Origin: an uncultured Oscillospiraceae bacterium
GTDB taxonomy: Bacteria > Bacillota > Clostridia > Oscillospirales > Oscillospiraceae
Direction of reading: 5' to 3'
Assembly: GCA_947626905.1 (NCBI GenBank)
Contig: CANQUE010000014.1
Location: forward strand, 1-42,297
DNA length: 42,297 nt
The translations under genes were made by a program, and so were the position numbers. Positions 1 to 34,226 of the stretch are shown here, piece after piece (the stretch's first letter is position 1; every line of letters begins with the position of its first letter). Below the pieces are notes generated by a model. That model was not told the DNA's origin, did no database searches, and was given only the letters and a program-made list of their open reading frames with translations.

Positions 1-48
1 GTCGATTCCAATTCCGTAAGGCAGTTGCCGCTTTTCAATTATTCGTTG

Positions 49-534
49 TCATACTGTCTTACGAACACTTGCCTGGTCTAGGGTGTGGATGTTTTCTTTC
101 TCAAAGATCACTTCCACACCTTTGGCTTTGAGTTCCCGTACCGTTTGAAGTGCATCTACGGTATTTCTTGCAAAGCGAGAAATGGACTTCGTGAGGATGA
201 GATCTATTTTCCCAGCCAAGGCCATCTCCACCATCTTCTTGAACTGCTCACGGTTCTTGGTGTTAGTGCCGGTGATACCTCTATCTGCGAAGATGCCTAC
301 CAGTTCCCAGTGAGGGTTACTCGTAATAAAGCGAGTGTAGTAATCCACCTGAGCCTCATAGCTGGATTCCTGCTCATCTTGTTCTGTGGAAACCCGTGCA
401 TAGGCTGCTACCCTCAGCTTGTCTGGCTCCAGATTTAATTCCTGCTCCAGTTGCACTGTGATAGGTTCTATGACGGTAACGGTGCGCTTTCGCTCTTGGA
501 CTTCAAGAGATGTGCTATTGTTGGTTATATTCAC
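49..534 (-). CDS. Serine recombinase, resolvase domain only (truncated)
   Basis: The protein of 161 aa carries the N-terminal resolvase/invertase catalytic domain of a large serine recombinase: YARVST with the nucleophilic Ser near residue 49, then [12 protein letters not shown], the conserved active-site helix. Large serine recombinases normally have 450-550 residues with Recombinase and zinc-ribbon domains; here the frame stops just after the catalytic domain (IHTLD then QASVRKTV). I chose a GTG start because AGAGGAGG lies 7 nt upstream; an ATG at 555 would leave that motif inside the gene. The start overlaps the end of the preceding recombinase by 20 nt, so translation is probably coupled. 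The same frame stays open beyond the TGA to the window edge (QRIIEKRQLPYGIGID), so this may be a deletion remnant, an interrupted gene, or one half of a split recombinase. It probably cannot act alone. Confidence 0.75.
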
Positions 535-1879
535 TCTGTTTCCTCCTCTCTTCATTTTTAGCTAGTGACTTTTGCCTCGCGGCCTCACGCATTTCCGGTG
601 TCCAGCTTTCCCGTCTGGATTTGTGTTGCCACGGCACTGTGGCAACAGTGCCGTCTTTCATATAGAAGATGAGCTGGTGAGGCTCCGGTACTTCAATCTT
701 TTGCACTCTAGATAGCAGAAGTTCCCGGTCTAGTGCTACATCCGCACCAAGGCCGAGAACTTCTTTGGTTTTCTCTATGAGAATTGTCTCCGGGATTGCC
801 TGCGCTGGGCAGACAGCCTTACCAAGCTCATAATTGCGGCGACAGGCCCAGGTGGGGTGTTTGTACTTTCCCTTACCAGCGTTCCGGTGTATGTAACTAC
901 CACTGCATTGGCCACAAGAAACTAAGCCAGTGAAAAGGTATTGGGGGTGAGAGCCACTTTCCGTGATGGAGAAAGTATACATTTCTTTCCTCCGAGCGAT
1001 TTCTGCCTGTACCTGCTGGAACTGTTCTCTGGGAATAATTGCTGTGTGGCTATTCGTAACTTCGTATTTTCTCACCTGGCCACGGTTAATTATGTCCTTT
1101 TTGGTCCGGAAATCTGGGCGGTATCTTTTCTGCAGGATCATGTCTCCGGAATATTTTTCGTTGGTAAGGATACGCATAACACTGATTCGGCCCCAACTGT
1201 CCGAAAAAGGTGCCGGGACTCTCTGTGCGTTTAGTTGTTTCGTAATGGCCGTCATGCTCATGCCAGAGAGATAGGAAGTGAAGATGTGTTGGACTAGCTT
1301 TGCTTCTTCTGGCACTACTTCCAGTTTACCGTCCCCCAGCCGGTATCCCAACATCCGGCCTACCCACGGCTCGCCTCTCTCAAACTTCTTCTTGATGCGC
1401 CACTTTTGATTCTCGCTGGCAGATCTGGCTTCCTCTTCGGCGTACATTGCGAGAAGCGTGAGTAAAAGTTCTCCGTCTGGGCTGATGGAGTGCATATTCT
1501 CTTTCTCGAAATAACAATCGATGCTGAGCTTCTTTAGCTCCCGGACAGTTTCCAGAAGTACCACCGTATTTCTGGCAAATCTGGTAATAGACTTAGTAAT
1601 CACTAAGTCTATCTTCCCGGCGCGACAATCATCGAGCATCCGTTGAAACTCTGGCCGGGCAATAATAGTACCAGAAATGCCGTTGTCTGAGTAGATATCT
1701 ACCAGTTGCCAATCCGGATGGGCATACACATAATCCTCATAATATTCCGTTTGCGCTTCCAGTGAATGAAAGGCAGCGTCCTTGTCTGCAGACACTCTGG
1801 CATAAGCTGCCACACGCACTAGTTTAAGTGGTTTTGGCGTAGCTGGAATGCACTCTATAGTTGGGGCTTTACCTGTCAT
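515..1879 (-). CDS. Large serine recombinase (site-specific integrase of a mobile element)
   Basis: This 454-aa protein is a full-length large serine recombinase, which excises and integrates mobile elements through a phosphoserine intermediate. It has the resolvase domain (YARVS with Ser about residue 30; [11 protein letters not shown]), the Recombinase domain (from about 150, with YLSGMSM and [10 protein letters not shown]), a zinc ribbon (CGQCSG near 330, WACRRN and VCPAQ after it), and a charged C-terminal tail. The start chosen (MTGKAP) follows AAAGGATGAG by a few bases; ATGs at 1888 and 1924 are possible. It overlaps the upstream small ORF by 11 nt and the downstream recombinase by 20 nt, forming a coupled operon. 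Sets of two or three such recombinases are common at one end of clostridial integrative elements, so it is probably the integrase of an element extending left of the window. Its partner attachment sites were not found. Confidence 0.93.
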
Positions 1880-2036
1880 AGCTCTCATCCTTTCTACCCC
1901 CAAATATCCTTGGGGCATCCACATGATAGCTCTGGTGCGGCAGAAAAGCCAGTCCTTTTTTAGCTCTATTCGCAGTTTTTTGGCGGACCTTTTTAGCCTT
2001 GCCTTTGATGATACTGGCTCTCTGGCCAGCTCGCAT
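1869..2036 (-). CDS. Small basic protein leading the recombinase operon
   Basis: A 55-aa ORF begins MRAGQRASII and is rich in Lys and Arg in its first half (KGKAKKVRQK). An AGAGGT motif stands 5 nt before the ATG, and the stop overlaps the recombinase start by 11 nt. That coupling is the main reason to think it is translated. It lies immediately downstream of the operon promoter. I do not recognise the family. It could be a small DNA-binding accessory factor or a leader peptide that sets recombinase translation. A longer form from an upstream ATG at 2081 is possible, but that ATG sits essentially at the predicted transcription start. Confidence 0.5.
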   Translation of the reverse strand: MRAGQRASIIKGKAKKVRQKTANRAKKGLAFLPHQSYHVDAPRIFGGRKDESYDR

Positions 2037-2081
2037 GATGACCTCTATAAATAACCTCCACTTAAAAATATACTGGGACAC

Positions 2082-2109
2082 ATTGTAGCTCAGATTGTCA
2101 AATTGTCAA
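2082..2109 (-). promoter_or_regulatory. Sigma-A promoter of the recombinase operon
   Basis: On the minus strand TTGACA (complement of 2104-2109) is followed after 16 nt by TACAAT (complement of 2082-2087). A second TTGACA (complement of 2096-2101) is nested 8 bp downstream. The duplicated -35 hexamer is unusual and could be a repressor or regulator site. Seen in sequence; use not tested. Confidence 0.65.
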
Positions 2110-2140
2110 GCATGAGCGAGATGAGGGGTGTTTTAAACGA

Positions 2141-2160
2141 TCTGTAACAGGGGTAGAGGT
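2141..2160 (+). repeat. Imperfect direct repeat, copy 1
   Basis: TCTGTAACAGGGGTAGAGG begins at 2141. A near-identical copy with two substitutions lies at 2562-2580, about 420 bp away, and the pair encloses the gene-poor GC-rich stretch. Confidence 0.5.
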
Positions 2161-2561
2161 TTTCAAAAAGTGCCCGAAGCGATGTTGCAAATTAGGCCAT
2201 ATTTAATGCTGAGAGAAGATGTGGGTATTATCTGACCACCTGCCCCTCATGCTATGCCAGCGTCCCAGGCGGCATAATTTTTGCCCTGTGGCGGCCACGT
2301 TAGCCCCACAAGGGCCGTGACCGGCCGTGGTGCTATCCATGTGCCCCTCCTGGGCTAGAGGGCGGTGCCTAGGCGCGGTATGGCCGCACTGGAGGAGGCA
2401 AGCCAGAGCATATTTGGGGCAAGGGCAGACCGCCCCGCATTTGGGGAAATGATATCCCGAAAGGGATATAGAGTCCGCTCCCTTAAAGGCCAAGGTTTCG
2501 CCATATTCCGCCGCTTGCAAGCGCTTGTAATCCGAGGCGAGTCGATGGGCGACTGGATGGG

Positions 2562-2580
2562 TCTGTAACAGAGGTAGATG
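2562..2580 (+). repeat. Imperfect direct repeat, copy 2
   Basis: TCTGTAACAGAGGTAGATG matches the copy at 2141 at 17 of 19 positions. The two copies could be recombinase or protein binding sites, or footprints of a past duplication or insertion. No function is shown. Confidence 0.5.
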
Positions 2581-2646
2581 CTTGATTAATGCTCCCAAAT
2601 ATAGCATTTTGGCAACGGCGAAATGGTGAGATTTATGTTTATTTTC

Positions 2647-2673
2647 GCACAAACAAAAATGGTGTGCTATAAT
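2647..2673 (+). promoter_or_regulatory. Extended -10 promoter with flanking inverted repeat
   Basis: TGCTATAAT forms an extended -10 element (TATAAT at 2668-2673) with a weak -35. The arms GCACA (2647-2651) and TGTGC (2663-2667) form an inverted repeat across the spacer, which could be an operator. Transcription would start about 2680, exactly at the 5' arm of the structured RNA. Confidence 0.55.
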
Positions 2674-2679
2674 AAAAGA

Positions 2680-2824
2680 GCATTAATCTGTTTTTGTAAG
2701 TAGCCCGCTGATTTCATGGATAAAAATGGCACCGGAAGGTTCTGATTCATGAAACCGGTTAAGCCTATGGCGAAGCTATTTTGTGAAAACAGATTAATGC
2801 ACCCTTGCGGTGCCATTTTTGTTA
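2680..2824 (+). ncRNA. Riboswitch-like structured leader RNA (unidentified class)
   Basis: The predicted transcript begins with a 15-nt arm (2680-2694) perfectly complementary to 2786-2800. TAGC (2701-2704) pairs with GCTA (2775-2778) inside it, TTTCATG (2712-2718) pairs with CATGAAA (2748-2754), and GCC-tat-GGC forms a small hairpin near 2763-2771, giving a multi-stem junction. The apical loop of the TTTCATG stem holds AAAAATGGCACCG (2722-2734), perfectly complementary to CGGTGCCATTTTT (2808-2820) outside the closing stem. The order is therefore A-B-A'-B', a pseudoknot. The B' arm also forms the competing short hairpin GCACC/GGTGC (2799-2813) followed by a T run, a terminator-like switch. 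Pairings are seen directly; the riboswitch role is inferred. I could not match it to FMN, TPP, SAM, lysine, c-di-GMP, preQ1, fluoride, cobalamin or guanidine consensus motifs. Confidence 0.6.
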
Positions 2825-2869
2825 TAACACTAAAATGGCCTGCGCTAATAAAATAAAGCGAGGTAGGTC

Positions 2870-4420
2870 ATGAAAATCATCCCAGAATGTATAAATAAAA
2901 CTAAGCGTCATCTCTGTGCCAGCGGCTCAATACTTCTCCCGTTGGCACAGAAATGGGGCTTAGTGGGGGTTCTGACTATTTGCGCGATATCTGGCGTAAT
3001 GGCACAGAATGTTTCTGCTGCGACAATCACCATGGAAGTACCAAGCACGCTTAGTTTAACAGTCGCACCGGATGGCAAATTACACGCCTCAAGTCCTGCT
3101 ACTGTAAAGATTACGAGCGATGCCTATGCTGGTTATACCTTCACAATTAAAAGTAATGACACTAGCAATGCATTGAAAACTACTAATGAAAGAACTATTG
3201 AATCTATCGATGTAGCTGCGGGCACAAATGATTTCCCGTTAAATCACTGGGGATTCCTGCCTAGCAAATTCAACAGCCAAGAAAACACGCAATATCAGCC
3301 CGGACCAACTGACGAGGCAGTTACGATTGACAAGACTAACCCCAAAAGCTCGAGCAACAGCACCACTAGCTACACAATTACTTTAGGCGTGAAAGTCGAC
3401 AATGAAACCTCCGCCGGAACTTATAGTCATAATTTTATTCTCACCGCCACCGCCAATGACGTGCCATACACCATAACCTATCATATGAACGAAGGCACAG
3501 GCATCTCTACTTTGCAGAATGGTGATTTACCCGAAGGAGATTCTATCGAGATTAGCAAGGCGCCGACACGTGCGGGCTACAATTTCGCTGGTTGGTGTGA
3601 GCAAGCAACTACCAATGAGACTTGCGGCGGCAAGGTTTACCAACCCGGAGAAACCTATACGCTGGGCAACAGTGACAACGCATTGGATCTTTATGCTATA
3701 TGGGCGCAAAAGATGCAGGATTGGAAAGGATGTAATGCTTTGGGCGACAAGATTGCTTACTTGGTGGATTCGCGCGACAACAATATCTATACTGTAGCGA
3801 AGTTAAAGGATGGCAATTGCTGGATGACGCAAAACCTCAGGCTGGGCAAAGTTGGGGAAACTATGCTCTTGACATCCGCAGATTCAGATGTAGAAAATAA
3901 CTTTACCTTGCCAGAGAGCAACATTAGCAAGTTCTATCTGCGCGACTACGGAGATTATACTTCAAGGCAACCAGAAGAATACGATAATGATGCCGTCTAT
4001 TTAGACCCAGTCCAAGTTAAGAAATATGGTGGCTATTATACATGGCACACAGCTGTGGCTGGCAGCGGCGACCATACGACATTGAACAAAGATGCTCAAT
4101 CATCGATTTGCCCAAAGGGATGGAAGCTCCCAAGTGAAAATATTTACAGAACCTTTGGAGAATATTACCCAACGCCAAATACATTTATTAATGAGTCCGT
4201 AGCTGGATTTGTGCTAGGTGGTAGCATAGGGACAAGGCGCGACGCAGAAGGTAGGGAAGCGATTGGGGGCCAAAACACTTCTGGATTCTATTGGTCAAGC
4301 ACAGCTAAGAATTACAGTGCGTCAGCGTTTGAATTCAATTTTACTGCGTCCAGTATTAACTGGAATCCGAATATGAACAGATTCGATGGGCGCTCTGTCC
4401 GTTGTTATGCGCGCCAGTAG
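2870..4420 (+). CDS. Secreted surface protein with InlB-type repeat and FISUMP domain
   Basis: This 516-aa protein has a long N-terminal signal region with a hydrophobic stretch near residues 30-45 and a likely cleavage site after VSA near 50. A beta-rich segment (about 51-195; EVPSTLSLTV, YAGYTFTIKSND) follows, then one Listeria-Bacteroides/InlB B-type repeat (about 200-282; ITYHMNEG, PTRAGYNFAGW, YAIWA). The C-terminal half is a Fibrobacter succinogenes major paralogous (FISUMP) domain (about 285-516; GNCWMTQNLRLG, CPKGWKLPS, GFYWSSTA, ending SVRCYARQ). No LPXTG motif or C-terminal anchor is visible. It is likely exported and may mediate binding or adhesion. This architecture recalls surface proteins of Saccharibacteria and other gut bacteria; from memory, it is unusual for this host. 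Its AT-rich codons contrast with the core genome, suggesting transfer. The structured RNA directly upstream probably controls it. Confidence 0.8.
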   Translation: MKIIPECINKTKRHLCASGSILLPLAQKWGLVGVLTICAISGVMAQNVSAATITMEVPSTLSLTVAPDGKLHASSPATVKITSDAYAGYTFTIKSNDTSNALKTTNERTIESIDVAAGTNDFPLNHWGFLPSKFNSQENTQYQPGPTDEAVTIDKTNPKSSSNSTTSYTITLGVKVDNETSAGTYSHNFILTATANDVPYTITYHMNEGTGISTLQNGDLPEGDSIEISKAPTRAGYNFAGWCEQATTNETCGGKVYQPGETYTLGNSDNALDLYAIWAQKMQDWKGCNALGDKIAYLVDSRDNNIYTVAKLKDGNCWMTQNLRLGKVGETMLLTSADSDVENNFTLPESNISKFYLRDYGDYTSRQPEEYDNDAVYLDPVQVKKYGGYYTWHTAVAGSGDHTTLNKDAQSSICPKGWKLPSENIYRTFGEYYPTPNTFINESVAGFVLGGSIGTRRDAEGREAIGGQNTSGFYWSSTAKNYSASAFEFNFTASSINWNPNMNRFDGRSVRCYARQ

Positions 4421-4490
4421 CCCTTTATTTCATAATCTAGAAACTCGTAAATAATGAAACGCAAATAACGCGTTGCGAGGGCGCTATTCA

Positions 4491-5105
4491 CTATTCATTT
4501 GGAAGAATACATGTTCTCGAAGCATGTCTTATATACAAAAGCGCTAAATCTATCCCACCATAAATCTTTTTGCCGTCTACACTATAGGCGATAACGCTAC
4601 ATTCTCCTTGCCTATACATGGGATCAGCGATGCGATTTCTCAAAACAGGGATGTGGCGCAGGGCCTGGTTAACGACAAGATACGCCTTGCAGGGCGGCTT
4701 ATAGTATTTTGAATAATTGAACTGTAATGCGTCAGCATCCTGCTCCATAAGTGTATACAGAATGCTTTTGTTAGGCAGGATTGCACTGCGGCTGTTGCAA
4801 ACATCATAGCACTCTACTAGCATATGGCCCTTGCGGATAATCTCAAAACTTTCTAAGAAACACGCTGTTTTGCCGGTATTGATAATCTGTATACTCAAAT
4901 CCGATAAACTTGTTTTTGTTCTTAACTCCGGCTCTGTCAATTCACTCTCTGGCGTTCCTTCTGCCTTAAAAATTAAACTCGGCCTGTTTTGATATTTCGC
5001 AGTCAGTATGTTTAAAACCCATCCTAATAGAACGCCAACAATTGCGAATACCCCACTCAGTATCGCACCAAAATTATTGGCCAGAGCTTTTATCAGTTGC
5101 TCCAT
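4491..5105 (-). CDS. Small N-terminally membrane-anchored protein downstream of the type IIL enzyme
   Basis: This 204-aa protein starts MEQLIKALAN with AGGTGA 5 nt before the ATG, 8 nt after the stop of the restriction-modification gene, so the two are probably co-transcribed. A single strong transmembrane segment lies near residues 14-36 (ILSGVFAIVGVLLGWVLNIL). The rest is soluble, with a predicted beta-rich core (LSIQIINTGKTACFLESFEI) resembling the general pattern of small membrane-anchored proteins often found in defence islands. I do not recognise a named family. It may be an accessory or alternative effector linked to the type IIL system or the Gabija locus, or simply a hitchhiker. A longer frame to 5177 would overlap the upstream gene and has no better ribosome site. 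Confidence 0.65.
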   Translation of the reverse strand: MEQLIKALANNFGAILSGVFAIVGVLLGWVLNILTAKYQNRPSLIFKAEGTPESELTEPELRTKTSLSDLSIQIINTGKTACFLESFEIIRKGHMLVECYDVCNSRSAILPNKSILYTLMEQDADALQFNYSKYYKPPCKAYLVVNQALRHIPVLRNRIADPMYRQGECSVIAYSVDGKKIYGGIDLALLYIRHASRTCILPNE

Positions 5106-5113
5106 AGAATCAC

Positions 5114-7897
5114 CTATGATTTTTTCTCTAATTTCTGTACAAGAGCTTGATACATCTTCATCAATTCTGCCACGCAACTGCTCTCAGTCATGTTCTTAAC
5201 AGAAAAGCCATATGCCTGCATGACGGCCCGGTCGTTGTCCTGATGGGCTTTCCGCAGTTCCGGCGGCATGGCGACTTCGTCATAGAGGTCGGCAAGACTT
5301 GCATCCGGGTAGAGAGCGCGGGCATCCAGAATGGCTTGTGCGGTTTGCTCGATCTTCGCTTTCTGCGCGTCTGTGGGCGTGGGCCAGGGGAAATTGTTGT
5401 AGACAACATCCTTGGAATAACGATAGTCACTTTTAAGGCGGCCGCAGACTGCCCTCATCCATGCCATATGGACATTGGAGGTCAACACGCCAAAGTGGTA
5501 AAGGGTGGCGTCGGGTATGATAAACACAAGATCACTGCTAAGAATATCCGGGGTTAATAGCCCCATCGGAACGTAACGGCGGCGCTCAGATGATACTTTG
5601 GGAATTACAATATAGTTGTTCTCAGGAATGTTTGTTGTTGCAAATGAAAGTGGATAATCTGCTAATTTTTTGGTGCTGGCCCGCGAACTGTTCAGTCGGA
5701 ATTCCCGTACATTTGCTACACGCTTTTGGCATTCTGGCATTTTTCGCAGTTCATTTGGTGGACAGTCTTTCAAATATAAACAATGCCTATATGATCGGTT
5801 TATGAATTCTTGGGAACCTATCCATGGCCTAAACCACTTTTCAGCGGACGGTTCTTTCTGCAAAAAAGCTACTTTCTCCTCTGTTGTGAACAAATAGTTC
5901 CCACCATCGAGAGGCATATTTCCAATCCCAATCTCAGGCACGTCACAGATTGGCTTGTTTCTACTCTCCACGAAAACATTATCCGCATCCAGCAGATAGC
6001 CATTGATATTCTGTACCACCTGCGGGCGGTCGGCAGAATAAATCACCTTTGGTGCATTATTCGGGGCAACGCTGAAACCGACAATCACGCAGTGAACGTG
6101 CGCCTTGATTTTCGCTTCGCTGTCCCAACGGAATGTACGGTGAGCAAAGTCAATATGTACGCCCATATCGAACAGCGGCTTCCAGAGGTTCGCCACGGAT
6201 TCACCTTGTGTCACAGAATTGGTGGACACAAGTGCCGAGCGTATAGATGTCCCCATCATCAAATCGGCACACTTTTTGTACCAACAGGTCACATAATCAA
6301 GATTACCTGCATTTTTCCAACCGGGGAACACGGAGTTCAAGTCGTCCTTTTGTGCTGTGTTCATCATTCGCGCACCCACAAAAGGCGGATTACCCATGAT
6401 GTAATTCAGCTTGTATTTCGGTACTACGCTTTCCCAATCAATCCGTAGCGCATTACCCTCTGTAATACACGCATTCGTTTTCAGCGGTAAGAAGTTAAGG
6501 GTAGTATGGACAACTTCCTCGGTTTCCTGCATCATCTGACTTTCTGCGATCCAGAGAGCCGTTTTCGCAACGGTTACAGCAAAATCGTTAATCTCAATGC
6601 CATAAAACTGGCTGATACTCACCTTGATAGGATCGCCCACATCCAACATAATTTGCCCTTGGTGAAGCAGGGATATTACTTCGTTCTCCAAACGGCGAAG
6701 AGAAAGATAGGTCTCGGTCAGGAAGTTCCCGGAGCCGCAGGCCGGATCAAGAAAGTTCAGGCTGGCCAGTTTCTTCTGGTATTCTTCCAATTTGAGCTTG
6801 CGGGTTTTTCTTACGGTGATAGCTTGGATTTCCTTTAGCTCTGCCTTTAGCGCATCCAAAAACAGCGGGTCAATGACTTTATGGATATTCTCGATAGAAG
6901 TGTAGTGCATCCCACCAGAACGCCTGGTTTCGGGGTTCAGTGTACTCTCGAAAACAGCTCCGAAGATCGTGGGGCTAATATCGCTCCAGTTGAAATCTTC
7001 GCTGGCGTTTTTGAGCAAGAGCATCTTTAATTCTTCAGTGAAGGGTGGGATCTCGATATTTTCGTCGCTGAACAGCCCGCCGTTGACATACGGGAATGCG
7101 GCCAGCTCCGGGTTATCGTCCGCGAGATACTTGTCTCTGTCTTCCGGTTTCTGATCCAGGATTTTGAACAGCTCCATAAGCGCTCTGCGTATGCCATTGG
7201 CAGGGATATCCCGCAGATAGTCGTGGAACATACTTTTGCTGCCAAAAATACCGGCATCCTCGGCATACAGGCAGAACACTAGCCGCACGCAGAGCTTATT
7301 GAGGCTTTGGAGCGTCCGAAGGTCATTGGGATTCTTGTATTGTTTTAGGAGCGCATCATACAAGACCCCTACCAGCTCGCCTGCTTGCAGGGAGATTTCC
7401 ATTTCCTTTTTGATGTGGTCATTGCCGGTATCTACCAGAAATTGTAAGCGGTAGTATTCCTTTTCCAGATCAGCTAACCGAATTTTCTCTGGTTCACCAC
7501 CTGGGCGCTCCATGTCATAGACATAGAACTCCGCAAAATTGCAGGTTACAACCCAGCGAGGATGCCGGGAAACCGGCAACTCTAAGATGTACTTTTTTGC
7601 CTGTTGGAATGGGTTCAGCAGAGATCCGTCAGACTGGCGGATGGGTTTATTCAGATCTTTGCCAAGCCCTTTTTGTTCAATAAGAACTTTGGTAGCAGGT
7701 ATTGTACCATCGATAAAGCTGGTATGATCCAAATGCACCTGTTCTTCAAAAACAATAAAATCCTCCGGATGCTCTACGCCAAAGACATCCCGTAAAAGCG
7801 ACAGCCAAAATGCTTGGCTTTGTCCCTTCTCGTAGCCTTTGCCTTTCCAGTTAGCCGCGAACTGCTTGGCGGCTTGCCTCTGTTCTATATCTGTCAT
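5114..7897 (-). CDS. Type IIL restriction-modification-specificity fusion enzyme (MmeI-like)
   Basis: This 927-aa single polypeptide matches the MmeI/type IIL layout. The N-terminal PD-(D/E)XK nuclease shows Asp63 followed by ExK at 74-76 (LIEQKG). A helical connector follows. The gamma-class adenine methyltransferase has motif I LDPACGSGNFL near residue 380 and motif IV NPPF near 500. The C-terminal part (about 600-900) is the target-recognition domain, ending in a helical spacer (NFPWPTPTDAQKAKIEQTAQAILDAR). Such enzymes methylate one strand of their site and cut unmodified DNA about 20 bases away, so no separate methylase or specificity subunit is needed, and none is present. The ATG follows GAGGTGG by a few bases. 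All catalytic motifs look intact. It is one half of a defence island with Gabija. Recognition sequence cannot be read from here. Confidence 0.9.
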   Translation of the reverse strand: MTDIEQRQAAKQFAANWKGKGYEKGQSQAFWLSLLRDVFGVEHPEDFIVFEEQVHLDHTSFIDGTIPATKVLIEQKGLGKDLNKPIRQSDGSLLNPFQQAKKYILELPVSRHPRWVVTCNFAEFYVYDMERPGGEPEKIRLADLEKEYYRLQFLVDTGNDHIKKEMEISLQAGELVGVLYDALLKQYKNPNDLRTLQSLNKLCVRLVFCLYAEDAGIFGSKSMFHDYLRDIPANGIRRALMELFKILDQKPEDRDKYLADDNPELAAFPYVNGGLFSDENIEIPPFTEELKMLLLKNASEDFNWSDISPTIFGAVFESTLNPETRRSGGMHYTSIENIHKVIDPLFLDALKAELKEIQAITVRKTRKLKLEEYQKKLASLNFLDPACGSGNFLTETYLSLRRLENEVISLLHQGQIMLDVGDPIKVSISQFYGIEINDFAVTVAKTALWIAESQMMQETEEVVHTTLNFLPLKTNACITEGNALRIDWESVVPKYKLNYIMGNPPFVGARMMNTAQKDDLNSVFPGWKNAGNLDYVTCWYKKCADLMMGTSIRSALVSTNSVTQGESVANLWKPLFDMGVHIDFAHRTFRWDSEAKIKAHVHCVIVGFSVAPNNAPKVIYSADRPQVVQNINGYLLDADNVFVESRNKPICDVPEIGIGNMPLDGGNYLFTTEEKVAFLQKEPSAEKWFRPWIGSQEFINRSYRHCLYLKDCPPNELRKMPECQKRVANVREFRLNSSRASTKKLADYPLSFATTNIPENNYIVIPKVSSERRRYVPMGLLTPDILSSDLVFIIPDATLYHFGVLTSNVHMAWMRAVCGRLKSDYRYSKDVVYNNFPWPTPTDAQKAKIEQTAQAILDARALYPDASLADLYDEVAMPPELRKAHQDNDRAVMQAYGFSVKNMTESSCVAELMKMYQALVQKLEKKS

Positions 7898-7953
7898 ACT
7901 ACCACCTCAGCGATGATTGATTGATTATGAAAATGCTTCTGTCTCTTTTTATA

Positions 7954-7982
7954 ACTATACCACACAGAGAAGCAGATTTCCA
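7954..7982 (-). promoter_or_regulatory. Candidate promoter of the type IIL operon
   Basis: On the minus strand TGGAAA (complement of 7977-7982) and TATAGT (complement of 7954-7959) are separated by 17 nt, in the 132-bp gap between gajB and the type IIL gene. The -35 is a weak match, so this is tentative, but it would make the restriction gene independent of the Gabija transcript. Confidence 0.45.
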
Positions 7983-8029
7983 GGGCACCTGTATAACACA
8001 AAACGGGTATTTCAATTGGCTTTACCAAC

Positions 8030-9457
8030 TCACGGGGAAAGCTCAAGAGTCGAGGATGGAGAAATTATATATATTTTTCTCATTGCTCTTGTCATAGCAA
8101 CATAGAATTCTTTTGCAGATAGAGGATCTGTCATATCGATTATGACACAGTCAAACTCAAGGCCCTTGGATAGCAATGTACGCGATGAAAGGAACTTAAA
8201 GTTATGATATCTCTTTTGCAAGGCAGGGTCCTTACGGATATGCTGTGCTGCTTCAAGAACAGAGATGTCGTGTTCCTTGGCATATTTGAGACTCCGGATC
8301 ATCTCGTTATGGAGCTCCCTGCGGTGGAATTTGAAAACAGGGGTCTTCTCAATCCAATCCAGTATTTGCAGCGCAGCCTCATATTTATCACAGTCCTGTA
8401 TGCCCACAAGAAGTTCACCAAACTCTTTGTGCTTTTTGATCCGACCGAAATCAAAGCTGTTCTTTCCCAACCTTTCCTTATATGAGCCAAGTTCTGCGTT
8501 GATATTCGTTTTGCAGTGGCTTTCAAAATTCAAAACTGAAAGATATAGCTCTGATCCACCCAGATTAGAGAATGACTCCGCATACTTGTACAAATCTTCG
8601 CATTCCTGTTTTTCGTCGACCTGAAAGATACCAGGGTGCTTTAAACAGAAATCTCTTTGTTGCGGCTCCCATTTTGTAATATATAAAACAGATTGATAAT
8701 CCTTCAGTTCACTGAGCATCGAATACAAATTGAATCTCTGCGGATGAATCAAGCCAACGAGCCCAGAGCACGAACCCACATTCAATGTGCATTGCGCCCC
8801 TGATAGTGTGGGCCATAAAGCACGCCGAACATCACCCAAGTACTGGCCAAGCGCAGGATTTGTATTTATCCAGCGCCACGGAAAAGTTTCAACTTCTACT
8901 TTGTAGTAACCGAGGTCATCCCAGTTCACCAGCGGCTGCCGGCTAAAAGAGAAGATACCCTGCAAGGGGTCTCCCAATACTCTGATCGGGAGATAGCGGC
9001 CCATCTCCTGAAATATCTCATGGTGAGCCTGCAGGCAGTCCTGATACTCATCGACGATGATACCAGAGTATGATGATTGCAGCACTCTTCCAAGCCAATC
9101 ATGTTGAAACAGTTGTTTTGTCCCAGTATAAAACTGCGCGTAATATTGGTCTGTCTCAGATTTCGTTTTATATGGAGAAAGCGAGGTATCAATTGCTGCG
9201 GTATTTCTGTATGACATACACCAGCGGGTGCAAAAGGCGGCAATGGTCGAAACGGCATACTTTGACTTTGGTATCTTCCGTGTGTTGAGCCTTTTTTGCA
9301 ATGAATCAACCCCAGCATGAGTATGCGTGAGAAGTAGCTGCCTCCCATCAAAGTGTTCGACCATATCTACAATCATTTCAGTTTTCCCATGTCCGGCCGG
9401 AGCAGTTATCACCGCTGTAGGATGTGCTGAGATCTCGTCAAATTCCTGCTTTGTCAT
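8030..9457 (-). CDS. gajB: Gabija subunit GajB, UvrD/Rep-like helicase
   Basis: This 475-aa superfamily 1 helicase-like protein has a Walker A loop APAGHGKTE (residues 19-27), motif II DEYQD near 138, motif III GDPLQGIF near 160, motif V SKGLEFDCVI near 430 and motif VI VAMTRA near 455. It is compact compared with UvrD (about 720 aa), as expected for GajB (about 500 aa). Its start overlaps the 3' end of gajA by 20 nt, so the two are made together. In Gabija, GajB binds the GajA tetramer and contributes helicase-like ATPase activity to the attack on phage DNA. The motifs are visible; the system assignment rests on pairing with an OLD-type ATPase/Toprim nuclease in the known gene order. Confidence 0.88.
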   Translation of the reverse strand: MTKQEFDEISAHPTAVITAPAGHGKTEMIVDMVEHFDGRQLLLTHTHAGVDSLQKRLNTRKIPKSKYAVSTIAAFCTRWCMSYRNTAAIDTSLSPYKTKSETDQYYAQFYTGTKQLFQHDWLGRVLQSSYSGIIVDEYQDCLQAHHEIFQEMGRYLPIRVLGDPLQGIFSFSRQPLVNWDDLGYYKVEVETFPWRWINTNPALGQYLGDVRRALWPTLSGAQCTLNVGSCSGLVGLIHPQRFNLYSMLSELKDYQSVLYITKWEPQQRDFCLKHPGIFQVDEKQECEDLYKYAESFSNLGGSELYLSVLNFESHCKTNINAELGSYKERLGKNSFDFGRIKKHKEFGELLVGIQDCDKYEAALQILDWIEKTPVFKFHRRELHNEMIRSLKYAKEHDISVLEAAQHIRKDPALQKRYHNFKFLSSRTLLSKGLEFDCVIIDMTDPLSAKEFYVAMTRAMRKIYIISPSSTLELSP

Positions 9458-11150
9458 TCTGAATCACCCAATTACTTAAACTTGTAACCACCGTTTTGAT
9501 TTTAGACTCGGCATCGAGTTCATCCCAGTACTGGAAAACTACTGAGCCAAGTTGCTCACCCAAGCCAATTAGTTTATACCAATTATTATTCTTGGCTGTC
9601 TTCCCTAGCATTGTAAGTTGTTCTGGCGAGAGGTCAGAGAGTGCAATTCTGTCTCCGTTTCTTTGGTATGGGATGGAGCTGCGGTCCAAGTGAGCAGCAA
9701 TTGAGTCTGCGCCTTTCTTATCAACTGCAAGTTGCAGTACATCTTGAATTGCTGACATGGGGAGTTCAGAAAAACACTGTTCCTCAAGTGCATTGGGCTT
9801 GTCCCAGTCGAACACAGGAACTCCTGCCGCTTGCATTCTCTGCTTATCAGCATCTTCACTATCTTTATCTGAGTCCATTAATATACAGATATCGTAACCA
9901 CAATTATGCAGTACATTTGCACATTTGAAGGTACTGGAGCCGCCACCATCCGCTGTCCCAACGCCCTTATATGCCATTCGGTATCCTCTAGTTTTGGCGA
10001 TGTGCTTGTCGAAAGCTCTGATAAACCCTATTTCTGTCTTACCCTCGCAGACAATCAAGCGCTTAGAAAGAAAAGCTTCCGCATTTCGCCTGACTTCTCC
10101 CTGCATCGTATCGTTCGCCTCTGGGTCTTCTCCCCTTAAGAAAAGGGCAGTCGTCGTTCCACCAACAGAATGAACCACCATTAGTTCACTAATTAAGCAT
10201 TCGGCCACCACTATAGGCGAATGGGTTGTCATCAGGATCTGACCAGCTGCGCTGTGGTCAGACCTGAATTCATTTATCAGATTTCGTAAGCGATAAGGCT
10301 CCAGCCCATTTTCTATTTCGTCAATCAGCAATAATGCGTTTCCGGCGGCCGCACCAATGTTTAGCCCCATAGACAGCAACCTTTGACTCCCCATGCCGAA
10401 TTGGCTTAAAGGGACATCGCCATCAAACAAGCCTACAGTGGATGAAAACGAACCGCCCTGGATGAGTAAGCGACTCTTTACCTCTGTGCTGAAATCAATG
10501 CCATACTTTTTCCCAACATCAGATAATGTGGAAGATACATCGTCCAATTTGCTAAGGTCAGCCTTTTGGGCCATCTCGCGAAGGGAGGTTGTATAGGCTT
10601 CATGCAGTATGCCTTTCGAATCTGCATATTTTTGTAGTACCGAGTACTTCCCCCATGTCAAATCCTTCTCCACATTATTTCCTATAGTCCCTACAAATAA
10701 CTGTCTCCTGTCATTTTGCGATATAATCCGAGGTTCAAGTCGATTACATACAATTTCCCATTTTGGTTCCAGAGATGCATTTATTGTGAGCTGGATGGTT
10801 AAACAGCAAGGAAGATCATCTTTTGGCTCATCGTCAATACCTTCGCCAAATTCAGCATATGGACCGCGGAGATATAATCCATATTTATCTTCAGCATAAA
10901 ACCCTTCAGGGAACTCTGAAAAGGTTGCTTGAATAACAATTGCATTCTCCACATTGTTACAGTAAAAATCTGAATCAGACGCAACAAGATTCCATGAGGG
11001 CCAAAATACCCACTCAATCGCCTTAAGAAGTGTGGATTTCGTGCTATCCCCCGCACCAATCAAACAGATCAGCCGAGAGTCAAGCGGAAAGGTTATTTCA
11101 CTTTCTCGAATACCACGAAAGTTTTGAATTTTAAGGCTTGTTATTCTCAT
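9438..11150 (-). CDS. gajA: Gabija subunit GajA, OLD-family ATPase-Toprim endonuclease
   Basis: This 570-aa protein starts MRITSLKIQNFRG, typical of OLD/RecF-like ABC ATPases. Walker A is the variant GAGDSTKST (about residues 32-40), where the usual GKS/T is preceded by Thr. An ABC-type segment MGSQRL lies near 258, Walker B LLLIDEIENG near 277, and the H-loop TTHSP near 309. The C-terminal Toprim nuclease has VCEGKTE near 369 and the metal-binding MDSDKD near 426. Length and layout match GajA (about 580 aa), a nucleotide-inhibited, site-specific nicking enzyme that is released when phage replication depletes NTPs. The ATG is chosen because GAGGAG stands 7 nt upstream; an ATG at 11186 lacks one. 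It is first in the gajA-gajB operon. Confidence 0.9.
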   Translation of the reverse strand: MRITSLKIQNFRGIRESEITFPLDSRLICLIGAGDSTKSTLLKAIEWVFWPSWNLVASDSDFYCNNVENAIVIQATFSEFPEGFYAEDKYGLYLRGPYAEFGEGIDDEPKDDLPCCLTIQLTINASLEPKWEIVCNRLEPRIISQNDRRQLFVGTIGNNVEKDLTWGKYSVLQKYADSKGILHEAYTTSLREMAQKADLSKLDDVSSTLSDVGKKYGIDFSTEVKSRLLIQGGSFSSTVGLFDGDVPLSQFGMGSQRLLSMGLNIGAAAGNALLLIDEIENGLEPYRLRNLINEFRSDHSAAGQILMTTHSPIVVAECLISELMVVHSVGGTTTALFLRGEDPEANDTMQGEVRRNAEAFLSKRLIVCEGKTEIGFIRAFDKHIAKTRGYRMAYKGVGTADGGGSSTFKCANVLHNCGYDICILMDSDKDSEDADKQRMQAAGVPVFDWDKPNALEEQCFSELPMSAIQDVLQLAVDKKGADSIAAHLDRSSIPYQRNGDRIALSDLSPEQLTMLGKTAKNNNWYKLIGLGEQLGSVVFQYWDELDAESKIKTVVTSLSNWVIQNDKAGI

Positions 11151-11320
11151 TATGTTTCTCCTCTGCAAAAGGATGTTTTTTGCCAATTCTATAAATTAAG
11201 ATGCTGGGTATGGAACTCTGTCGGCCTATTCAAAGATGCCCCGTGTTTTTTGTCGGCAACCAGGACACATACCCGTTGGCCTAGACTCTCCAGCCACTTC
11301 CTCTAATACGTCTATTTTAA

Positions 11321-11349
11321 ATTATAATATGAAAGTACGAGGTTTTCAA
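11321..11349 (-). promoter_or_regulatory. Sigma-A promoter of the Gabija operon
   Basis: On the minus strand TTGAAA (complement of 11344-11349), a 17-nt spacer and TATAAT (complement of 11321-11326) form a good promoter. The leader to gajA would be about 165 nt, long enough for regulation; no known RNA motif was recognised in it. Confidence 0.6.
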
Positions 11350-11957
11350 TAATATTATAGTCCATAAGCTATTGGGGAATGTCAATGCTACAGATCTGTA
11401 TGGAAGCACGTAATTACTTCGACCGGTGAGCTGTGATTCATGACAAAACCGGACAAAGCCATATAGCGAGTGGATGCCCCTAGTGTAACGGATAATATTT
11501 CTTGGTGCAGTCAAGTGCCAAAACAGCACTCCACGTCCACGTCAAGACACATTTCGAGTGTTCATAAGGATTTCACTTTATGAGCACTCGAATCCTTTTA
11601 TCCGCGTCCCATGCGGGGCGGGCGTGTCAGCCTGCCCTGCTTTTATTTTGCGGCTGGTTCAATGATCGGCTCATGGACGTCCTGGAACACCGCCCAATTC
11701 TCCATAAAGCGGCACCCCTCACGCAGAGGTCTTGCGTAAGGGGTGCGTTTGCTCACTCGATAGGCTTCATTGTGGGAAGATCTATCAAAACCGCTTTTTC
11801 TGTAATATCAATATTATTTCGTCTTCTCCATCTTGGTATTATGCGAATTTTCACAGGATTGCTTTTATCCTCGTTCAGCGTCCGCCCCGTCATGGAAACA
11901 AAACAGGATCGATCCTGCCGAATTTCGGGCGGTTTTTCTCAGATAGACGATGTGCTG
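11350..11957. other. Intergenic region without a supported gene
   Basis: Beyond the gajA promoter, about 600 bases separate the defence island from the FkbM gene. Open frames of 70 codons (11317-11529, minus) and 145 codons (11580-12017, plus, running into the FkbM gene on the opposite strand) show no family features. The only clear structure is an inverted repeat at 11712-11746. The stretch probably marks the edge of the accessory island. Confidence 0.4.
11712..11746. repeat. Strong inverted repeat (14-bp arms)
   Basis: GCACCCCTCACGCA (11712-11725) and TGCGTAAGGGGTGC (11733-11746) pair with a single mismatch around a 7-nt loop. It lies about 210 bases downstream of the FkbM gene on the minus strand. 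Neither side has a long T run (TTTATGG on the minus side), so it is only a possible terminator or a palindromic repeat. Confidence 0.5.
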
Positions 11958-12860
11958 TTACAACACCGCATAAACAACGGTATCATTTTTATTGGGCTTA
12001 TGATGCCGGACATATAGTTTGTACTCGGGGACCAGCTCCCTGATATAAAAGGGGATCTCAAAATAATCCTGCGGTTCATGATAGATACTGACAGCCAACC
12101 GGGGCTTATCCCTGCGGATGATTTTTTCTGCTCCCCGCAGCGCCTCCATCTCGCTTCCTTCGATGTCCAGCTTGATAAATGTAACCTTGTCCTCCCAGCA
12201 AACATTATCAATGGAATCCACGGTTACCACACAAGAACCAACTTCCGAAATTTTCGAATTATCTCCTCCCTTTTGTTCAAAATGTAATTTCGTCTTTCTA
12301 CTCCATAATCCAAAAGGAAGGATCTCAATGTTTTGATAGTCATGCGCTTTACAGGTCTTGATCAAACGGCTTCGGTTGATCTCGTCCGGTTCCCAAGCGT
12401 ATACTTTTTTCCAATACCCCCCCCCGGCAAATTTTTCCAAGCCTATGATCGAATCTCCCGTATATGCCCCTCCGTCTACAAATACCTCATCCTTTATGGG
12501 ACTAAGAATATCCCTTTGAAAATACATAGGGCTCACAACGATCCGTTGTAGTTTCTCTTTGCTTGGCGCCAGGCGATAACTGATAACTGCTTGCAGCGTT
12601 TCACGGGAAAACTCGTCCTCCAACATCGATGCTACTGCTTCAAACATACTCTTGTGGCTGTTATAGCACGCCGTAAACTCTCTTCTCGTTTCCTTTGCTG
12701 TCATGAGCGAATACCGATCATAATCATGTTCGCAGAGATATTTGTATCTATCAGCACGGTACTTTCTTATTCTGCGCCCGATCTTAGATCTTTTGAAAGC
12801 AGAAACCAGCTTCGCAGAATACTTATATTTCTCTAAAAAAAGCCTGACGTCATGCAACAT
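11958..12860 (-). CDS. FkbM family SAM-dependent methyltransferase
   Basis: This 300-aa protein has the Rossmann methyltransferase core in its C-terminal half: the SAM-binding loop VFVDGGAYTGDS near residue 125, an acidic strand end AWEPDE near 152, and the FkbM hallmark FIKLDIEGSEMEALRGA near 228. FkbM enzymes methylate hydroxyl groups of sugars or polyketides and often sit in surface-polysaccharide loci. The N-terminal third is charged, helical and of unknown role. No glycosyltransferase or polysaccharide gene is adjacent, so the substrate is unknown. The coding strand holds a run of nine G (complement of 12417-12425, within FAGGGYW), where slippage could switch the gene off. It is read in frame here. 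Intermediate base composition suggests it belongs to the island margin. Confidence 0.85.
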   Translation of the reverse strand: MLHDVRLFLEKYKYSAKLVSAFKRSKIGRRIRKYRADRYKYLCEHDYDRYSLMTAKETRREFTACYNSHKSMFEAVASMLEDEFSRETLQAVISYRLAPSKEKLQRIVVSPMYFQRDILSPIKDEVFVDGGAYTGDSIIGLEKFAGGGYWKKVYAWEPDEINRSRLIKTCKAHDYQNIEILPFGLWSRKTKLHFEQKGGDNSKISEVGSCVVTVDSIDNVCWEDKVTFIKLDIEGSEMEALRGAEKIIRRDKPRLAVSIYHEPQDYFEIPFYIRELVPEYKLYVRHHKPNKNDTVVYAVL

Positions 12861-12977
12861 AACGGTCTTTCTTCCTCAATTCAAACTTTTCGGGCAGGAT
12901 CCATTCAGTACATATCAATAGTATCATAAAAGAGCCCCTATGCGGGATTGATATTTTCACGAATTGTTCTTTTCATT

Positions 12978-13739
12978 TCAGTTTAACTCCTTTGTCAAAT
13001 GCGGCGCTGTCTGTCTTCTAACTCTCGACCTGTGCACACCACGAAACACATTTCTACTACTACAAGTCAAGAAATTGATAACGCCACGAGCGACCTGTCC
13101 CGCCGAGGGCAGACCGTGGCTCGCCAAGGCGATCCCACTCATCAACAACCAGAAGGGCATACTGCAAAGGGTCATGCCAAAAACCCGCTGGAAGGTCGGG
13201 AACTCCGCAGGGCAGCAGGCCATCATTTTCCGATTGCCAAGGGGATAGGAGAAGGCCGCGATCAGTATAAGCACCAGCGCCGGCAGCGTCCCCTCCAGAT
13301 GCATGGTGCGGAAGTGGGCCGCCTGCAGCAGAAATACCCCCAGCAGGATCACGCCGGAACAGGCCAGATTCTTTCCAGGGATCTTTTTCCCAAACAGCGG
13401 GGTCAGCAGGATCCCAGCTACGATGGTCAGCTGCCAGGTGGCCGCCACGAACCAACTCTCCCCATACACAGACGCCCATGTCAGCGGCGCGTAGAACAGC
13501 CCGAAGCCCACCGTGCTCCACAGCAGCCAGGGGCCGGGGTTCGCCCTGACCTCTCTCAGCACCGCGCCAACGCCGCCGCGGCGGCTTGCCAGCGCCCATG
13601 TCATGGGCAGCATGAACAAATAGCGGAGGCTGGCGCTCCATAGCCAGTAGCCGCCGCCCAGATTCATGCTGCGGTTCAGAACAAAGGTGGCCGCGAAGAA
13701 AAGCGAGGCCAGCATACCCAAGAATATAGATTTTTTCAT
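12978..13739 (-). pseudogene. DMT/EmrE-superfamily exporter with aberrant C-terminus
   Basis: The frame encodes 253 aa. The first 220 form seven or so hydrophobic helices typical of the multidrug resistance efflux transporter family in the drug/metabolite transporter superfamily (IFLGMLASLFFAATFVLNRS, LWSASLRYLFMLPMTWAL, ILIAAFSYPLGNRKMM). Relatives have about 300 aa with ten helices. Here, after SAGQVARG, the sequence switches abruptly to a basic non-membrane tail (CSSRNVFRGVHRSRVRRQ). The last helices therefore appear replaced by unrelated DNA, and the product is probably non-functional. The break is near 13,075, close to where base composition changes, so it may mark an old deletion or insertion junction. 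The ATG follows GAGGCGAGGAT. Confidence 0.7.
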
Positions 13740-34122: not shown

Positions 34123-34154
34123 GGACAGCCCTGATCTTTCATACAGAGCTGCCC
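34123..34154 (-). promoter_or_regulatory. Expression-platform hairpin of the ZTP riboswitch
   Basis: An 11-bp hairpin with G-U pairs (arms complement of 34144-34154 and 34123-34133) begins within the GGGCA of the riboswitch's conserved 3' element, so ligand-bound and hairpin states should exclude each other. It lacks a T run (AAATTGCTTTAAGG follows), and the purE ribosome site starts about 10 nt later. Control may be translational or act on an imperfect terminator. Confidence 0.6.
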
Positions 34155-34226
34155 AGACGGTCGACAAAAACAATGAAATTGGCTCCCCTGCGTGCCTCGC
34201 GTCCCGTCAGTTGCCAACTCACCCCA
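34150..34226 (-). ncRNA. ZTP (pfl) riboswitch upstream of purE
   Basis: On the minus strand stem P1 TTGGC (complement of 34213-34217) pairs with GCCAA (complement of 34179-34183). Between them are AACTGACGGGAC, a small hairpin GCG-CGC, and the invariant GGGGAG just before P1'. After an AT-rich linker comes the conserved element CCGTCTGGGCA (complement of 34150-34160). CCGTC can pair with GACGG (complement of 34204-34208) to form the ZTP pseudoknot; this pair is a compensated variant of the more common GGCGG/CCGCC. The class binds ZMP/ZTP (AICAR nucleotides) and raises expression of purine and one-carbon genes when 10-formyl-THF is short. Its place 50 nt before purE fits exactly. Confidence 0.86.

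Follow-up and report, generated by a model that had tools for sequence, protein, structure and literature searches.

We analyzed a stretch of 42,297 nucleotides (nt) from an uncultured Oscillospiraceae bacterium (contig CANQUE010000014.1, called the window throughout), in which a structured RNA element lies ahead of a gene for a secreted surface protein of 516 amino acids with a FISUMP domain (2870-4420, forward strand). A first interpretation based on the letters of the DNA (the sequence-only reading) had proposed an RNA of no known class, with two interlocking helices, in front of a FISUMP gene. Indeed, the downstream protein passes the TIGR02145 cut-off (54.3 bits, with the cut-off at 41.65) and also contains a Flg_new repeat as defined by Pfam. 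The claimed arms are exact: positions 2680-2694 are perfectly complementary to 2786-2800 over 15 base pairs (bp), and 2722-2734 to 2808-2820 over 13 bp, in the order A-B-A'-B'. Chance inverted repeats could be ruled out as their source, as in 2,000 dinucleotide shuffles of 2647-2824 a 15-bp arm never occurred, an arm of at least 13 bp occurred once, and two interlocking arms of at least 10 bp each were never found. The folding energy of the RNA is lower than that of all 200 shuffled sequences (0/200, z = -3.7).

All parts of the element lie on the same strand as the gene. An extended -10 promoter (TGC TATAAT), from which the sequence-only reading had predicted the start of the RNA, is located at 2665-2673; 1.2 such sites are expected by chance, so the box is weak if taken alone. 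Just 5' of it, an 11-nt B-like stretch (AACAAAAATGG, 2652-2662) represents the complement of 2813-2823, and locus L161 has a similar copy. The promoter is followed by the 5' arm of helix P1 (A, 2680-2694), by the 5' arm of P2 (AAGTAGC, 2698-2704) and by the 5' arm of P3 (2712-2721), which closes a loop containing the conserved strand B (AAAAATGGCACCGGAAGG, 2722-2739). The 3' arm of P3 (2745-2754) leads into a small hairpin, GCCTATGGC (GCC..GGC, 2763-2771), which in the fold sits between P3 and the 3' arm of P2 (GCTATTT, 2775-2781). Hairpins of similar form are found in the other Clostridia copies L040, L161 and L110, the last one reading GCC..GGGC. The 3' arm of P1 (A', 2786-2800) is then followed by B' (CCTTGCGGTGCCATTTTT, 2803-2820), the complement of B, which ends in the U-run of a putative intrinsic terminator (2816-2820). 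The nested small stems of the sequence-only reading do exist, but are better described as P2 and P3, and the comparison with homologues lengthens the B arm to 18 nt (2722-2739 paired to 2803-2820), with a single mismatch in the window copy. A competing mini-hairpin, GCACC-CTTGC-GGTGC (2799-2813), and a T run are present as claimed. The hairpin, followed by CATTTTTGTT, forms the sole terminator-like site that we found (0.2 expected). Past the U-run, a third B-like strand, B2, is represented in the window by a degenerate remnant (AAAATGGCC, 2832-2840).

We compared the window copy to its homologues. Short DNA matches among relatives identified copies in G020, G026 and G011, which share one plan: a -10 box, arm A, a second helix, AAAAATGGCAYC.., a third helix, A', and then CCTTGCGGTGCCATTTTT. 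A FISUMP gene follows in G020 and G026, and the G011 contig stops in the T run. The arms of these copies are unrelated in sequence, yet they pair inside each copy. In an alignment of 50 copies, 96.6% of the P1 cells and 82.6% of the P2 cells are paired, and 20 of the 21 pairs have changed on both sides, yielding a covariation score of 0.746, compared with 0.232 in shuffles (0/500) and 0.04-0.14 when partners are slid. We then included diverged clades, bringing the set to 62 copies, in which pairing reaches 97.4% in P1, 91.7% in P2 and 93.0% in B:B', the latter being outside the model that was used to align them. Across these three helices 31 of 39 pairs have changed on both sides, none of 500 shuffles matches the alignment on any measure, and sliding the partners abolishes the signal. 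In B:B' itself, double changes affect 10 of 18 pairs and 73 cells, compared with 22.4 +- 3.5 in shuffles (0/500). Examples are UGGC:GCCA, which becomes CGGC:GCCG, AGGC:GCCU or GGGC:GCCC, and GUAAGG:CCUUGC, which becomes AUGAGG:CCUCGU or GUUAGG:CCUAGC. The shuffling and sliding controls ignore the relatedness of the copies, but many independent double changes are observed. P3, the helix around the B loop, has a score of 13.9, and of 7.9 if its 3' segments are exchanged between copies. The lengths of P1 and P3 do not compensate for each other (r = -0.11). The comparison shows that P1, P2, P3 and B:B' pair across the family, which is evidence for structure and not for function; the compensatory changes are numerous in both helices that the sequence-only reading had put forward.

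Between P2 and P3, most copies contain a U-rich junction with runs of 4-6 T, which in some copies, as judged by eye, forms the loop of a short extra hairpin. The conserved nucleotides of the family are almost all explained by the B:B' pairing, the U-run and this junction. A ligand-binding riboswitch of a new class would account for the strong conservation of the structure, and its pseudoknot, conserved loop and junction nucleotides and terminator-like 3' end do resemble those of transcription riboswitches. We nevertheless regard such a riboswitch as very unlikely, as little sequence is left to build an aptamer core, and as the genes led by the RNA code for surface proteins and not for metabolic functions.

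The element is framed as a transcript. A -10 box with at most one mismatch to TATAAT lies within 24 nt 5' of P1 in 121 of 125 elements, compared with 28 of 125 in a control stretch located further 5', in agreement with the start predicted in the window. Most of these boxes carry the extended TG and are found 3-7 nt from P1, and the first transcribed base thus falls at about the start of P1. At the 3' end, each T of the U-run is 95-100% conserved in the 62 diverged homologues, whereas the A residues opposite are conserved to 58-85%. This is expected for the U-tract of a terminator, but not from pairing alone. On sequence evidence, the B:B' stem and the conserved U-run together resemble an intrinsic terminator at the 3' end of the element. 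A natural derivative in G021 (L042, 1418-1450) has a FISUMP gene with its -10 box joined directly to TTGCGGTGTCATTTTTG, the end of B', and lacks P1, B and P1'. It lies on a short contig, and could represent either a natural deletion or an assembly fault; its arrangement is consistent with one promoter serving both leader and gene.

It is reasonably likely that the element is a cis-acting leader RNA of ~142 nt (2680-2821), which attenuates transcription of the surface protein gene and in which B:B' forms the terminator stem. In this model, for which we infer termination, the polarity of the switch and the roles of the small hairpin and of B2, transcription is set to start at P1. As the comparison shows, P1, P2 and P3 form an elongated hairpin with the U-rich junction between P2 and P3, presenting strand B in the loop, and B pairs with B' just 3' of P1 to generate a pseudoknot. 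B:B' would then represent an intrinsic terminator stem in pseudoknot form, complete with A-tract, G+C-rich stem and invariant U-run, so that early termination at ~2820 would be the default state. In the ON state, the local hairpin (CACC/GGUG), or B2 after read-through, would take B' away from B. The balance might be tipped by a protein, a metabolite, another RNA or the speed of transcription. Several points weigh against this interpretation. The U-run is short (5 U, followed by GUU). B:B' has to bridge the foot of P1 and the P3 loop, and the RNA must bend sharply at the U-rich junction to allow this. Housekeeping genes are found behind a few copies (see below), and no obvious single signal fits these. 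Finally, B2 lies past the terminator, where it would be pointless if ending transcription were the sole role of the leader; the leader may thus do more than attenuate.

The sequence-only reading had assigned the opposite polarity, with the GCACC/GGUGC hairpin and the U-run forming the terminator and the B:B' pseudoknot serving as antiterminator. In its favor, the tail hairpin has at least 4 bp in all 62 homologues and at least 5 bp in 53 of them. Moreover, in a clade with GGUGUC the end of P1' has become GACACC, whereby the hairpin stays Watson-Crick and B:B' falls to a G-U wobble. On the other hand, 7 of the 62 copies lack an intact A-U pair in the small hairpin, its stem ends 2 nt short of the U-run in the common form, and its individual pairs are less consistent and less well supported than those of B:B'. 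The long B:B' stem, with an A-tract facing the U-run, reads as a complete terminator stem. Because it leads directly into the invariant U-run, B:B' looks more like the terminator and the 5-bp hairpin like its competitor, and we consider the opposite polarity unlikely.

We investigated the third strand, B2. A B-like strand is found within ~100 nt 3' of the U-run in 64% of the elements, compared with 2.6% in shuffles, and its presence hints at partner switching. Among ten copies in which B' has changed, B2 is a better match to its own B' than to the common B' in eight; the register was picked by fit, and we take this as a hint only. At one locus (L219, 1501-1710) the tail together with the 3' end of P1 is able to form ~25 bp with the B2 region that follows, and B2 could thus also compete with P1. 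The shared strands suggest a further explanation, namely that the leader mainly acts as a released small RNA in trans, whose B' (or B) would bind to B2 or B in the mRNAs of paralogues and thereby cross-regulate the surface protein family. B, B' and B2 are common to dozens of loci per cell, and the fit of B2 to its own B' is compatible with such a role, although it is confounded by the choice of register. Full cross-pairings between sampled P1 arms are missing within genomes (0/1086) and occur between genomes (43/3336), a slight difference that is confounded by orthologues. Against a role in trans, almost every copy is linked to a gene that follows after a short distance, as cis elements would be, and B2 is absent in about a third of the copies and degenerate in the window. 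A small RNA acting mainly in trans thus seems to us decidedly unlikely.

The arms are nearly saturated with change even next to a shared 5' untranslated region, and their pairing is kept: element pairs that share at least 90% of the next 75 nt have an element identity of 0.65, compared with 0.60 in unrelated pairs and 0.59 in shuffled sequences. Fast drift would explain this saturation, and so would recombination or gene conversion if the exchanged tract is bounded near B'. Variable arms whose folding is kept are also a property of integron attC sites, and paralogues with near-identical downstream DNA have unrelated arms. Together with two serine recombinase genes nearby in the window, these features would be accommodated by a DNA element, either an attC-like site recombining as a folded single strand or a palindromic mobile element, that shuffles surface protein cassettes. 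We find this very improbable: the element is bounded, like a transcript, by a -10 promoter at near-fixed distance and by an invariant T-run, it has the orientation of the gene throughout our sample, each gene has its own promoter, and the free use of G-U pairs in the helices favors RNA.

The claim that the RNA belongs to no known class has stood up, with Rfam 15 yielding no match above the gathering threshold at the element. A permissive Rfam search with the element and 12 homologous loci returned only sub-threshold hits, mostly to eukaryotic microRNA models. Likewise, we found in the open-licence literature no description of the RNA family, no structured leader for FISUMP genes, and no paper linking Saccharibacteria with FISUMP or with Rfam and cis-regulatory. 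The phage and plasmid collections searched contain no DNA similar to the element; viral contigs gave three pattern matches, of which the two inspected (L173, L174) lack the rest of the element. We thus rate the RNA as a new class, absent from Rfam, of an already known kind, the structured attenuator leader. It is unusual in copy number and in the variability of its arms.

We mapped the distribution of the element with genome draws of one genome per species, which give breadth but not a census. In the genus of the window, our covariance model finds one copy each in 4 of 35 genomes. A class-wide draw of 291 genomes contains a strong match only in the window's own genome, plus one marginal match. 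In an exact scan of 84,980 genomes with the 3' strand, among the matches listed, nearly all true elements come from metagenome-assembled genomes (MAGs) of Candidatus Saccharibacteria, many of them from animal guts, and a few from Oscillospiraceae or other Clostridia MAGs. In the Saccharibacteria class, 34 of 295 genomes have an RNA match, and a draw from the whole Saccharibacteria phylum yielded matches in 2 of 192 genomes, both already known. In four Saccharibacteria genomes of 0.8-0.9 Mb our model R1 finds 48, 44, 52 and 42 matches, and each of six further genomes has 3-25; some of these counts may include reverse-strand by-products. Such reverse-strand matches (E ~1e-5) result from the B/B' palindrome, and were excluded from our alignment A3 by the choice of sources and an E-value cut.

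Wherever sufficient downstream DNA is available, an open reading frame follows the element on the same strand (103 found, none lacking), which is weak evidence alone, as the finder is permissive. Of 19 proteins sampled from the genes behind the element, 12 have a Pfam match to Fib_succ_major or to its repeat partner, which in several cases scores below the cut-off. The FISUMP cut-off of NCBIfam is passed by the window protein and by four of six others, and a fifth falls just short. FISUMP proteins are present in 30 of 34 RNA-bearing Saccharibacteria genomes, compared with 70 of 261 others (Fisher p 4e-12, uncorrected for shared ancestry). About 70 of the 100 FISUMP-bearing genomes are without a match to the RNA model, and may have either a further diverged leader or none. 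Single copies precede genes for IleRS (L059/L193), GlyRS (L202), ribosomal protein S12 (L219), MurJ (L241) and an ABC substrate-binding protein (L112), as named from a reading of the translations. Within the FISUMP coding region of the window, a strong hairpin (2914-2950; CTGTGCCAGCGG / CCGTTGGCACAG) encodes the N-terminal motif CASGSILLPLA, and both of its arms have changed together in G020, G026 and G021.

The RNA family is at home in Saccharibacteria, in which many paralogous genes for adhesin-like proteins share it as their leader. Its Clostridia copies were most likely acquired from there together with the gene. The setting of the window copy fits such an acquisition: the element lies in a stretch of ~45% G+C (1-13000), which contains two serine recombinase genes (49-555 and 515-1924, minus strand) and adjoins DNA of 62% G+C. 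The same stretch harbors an MmeI-like restriction-modification gene (5114-7897, minus strand). Contamination is an unlikely source of the window copy, as ~29 kb of the 42-kb contig are near 62% G+C and as other Clostridia MAGs carry copies, too. The only Rfam match in the window at the gathering threshold is a ZMP/ZTP riboswitch (RF01750, 44.8 bits) at 34144-34224 on the minus strand.

Saccharibacteria are tiny bacteria that live on the surface of other bacteria. How they control their own surface proteins is little understood, and the RNA class, with 42-52 model matches in each of four 0.8-0.9 Mb genomes, mostly before genes for adhesin-like proteins, offers a common and recognizable control element. 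Its near-saturated yet pairing arms represent a clean natural experiment on selection for structure only, and because copies have the strands B, B' and B2 in common, cross-talk among paralogues can be tested directly. A bolder idea, which we offer as a long shot, is a genome-wide RNA network in which ~40-50 surface protein genes of an episymbiont share interchangeable B, B' and B2 strands, and released leaders compete such that just one or a few adhesins are expressed at once. If true, this would amount to RNA-based, mutually exclusive expression of surface antigens, with the hypervariable, self-paired arms keeping each leader folding in cis.

We finally compared the element to known systems. 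The protein behind the leader is a member of the FISUMP / Fib_succ_major surface proteins (TIGR02145, PF09603); a paper about the diversity-generating retroelements of human microbiomes (PMC4159848) reportedly mentions the FISUMP domain. T-box leaders (RF00230) are attenuators as well, B (UGGCACCG..AGG) resembles the T-box word UGGNACC, and the complement of B forms the 3' arm of a terminator-like stem. A T-box can be rejected, however: 25 of the 61 readable copies have C, A or G in place of the U that opens UGG (A3, column 95: T 36, C 21, A 2, G 2), and pairing with a tRNA NCCA end is thus not kept. In addition, no Rfam T-box match was obtained for the window region and 12 homologous loci at permissive thresholds, no Stem I with a specifier loop could be recognized in the element, and the genes are mostly FISUMP-like, with IleRS, GlyRS and the ABC binding protein as single cases. 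Integron attC sites share with the element imperfect folding arms of variable sequence and many copies per genome, each beside one gene. In contrast to attC sites, our element is framed by a promoter and a U-run, and conservation falls on a loop and a 3' strand, not on paired core sites at its two ends. In preQ1 and ZTP transcription riboswitches, a hairpin loop forms a pseudoknot with the 3' tail beside an intrinsic terminator in the 5' leader. The element likewise pairs a hairpin loop with the 3' tail at the terminator-like end of a 5' leader. It differs in that the pseudoknot strand itself ends in the U-run, in that no conserved aptamer core is evident, and in its hypervariable helices and up to ~50 copies per genome. 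Its working principle thus comes closest to that of pseudoknotted attenuators and transcription riboswitches.
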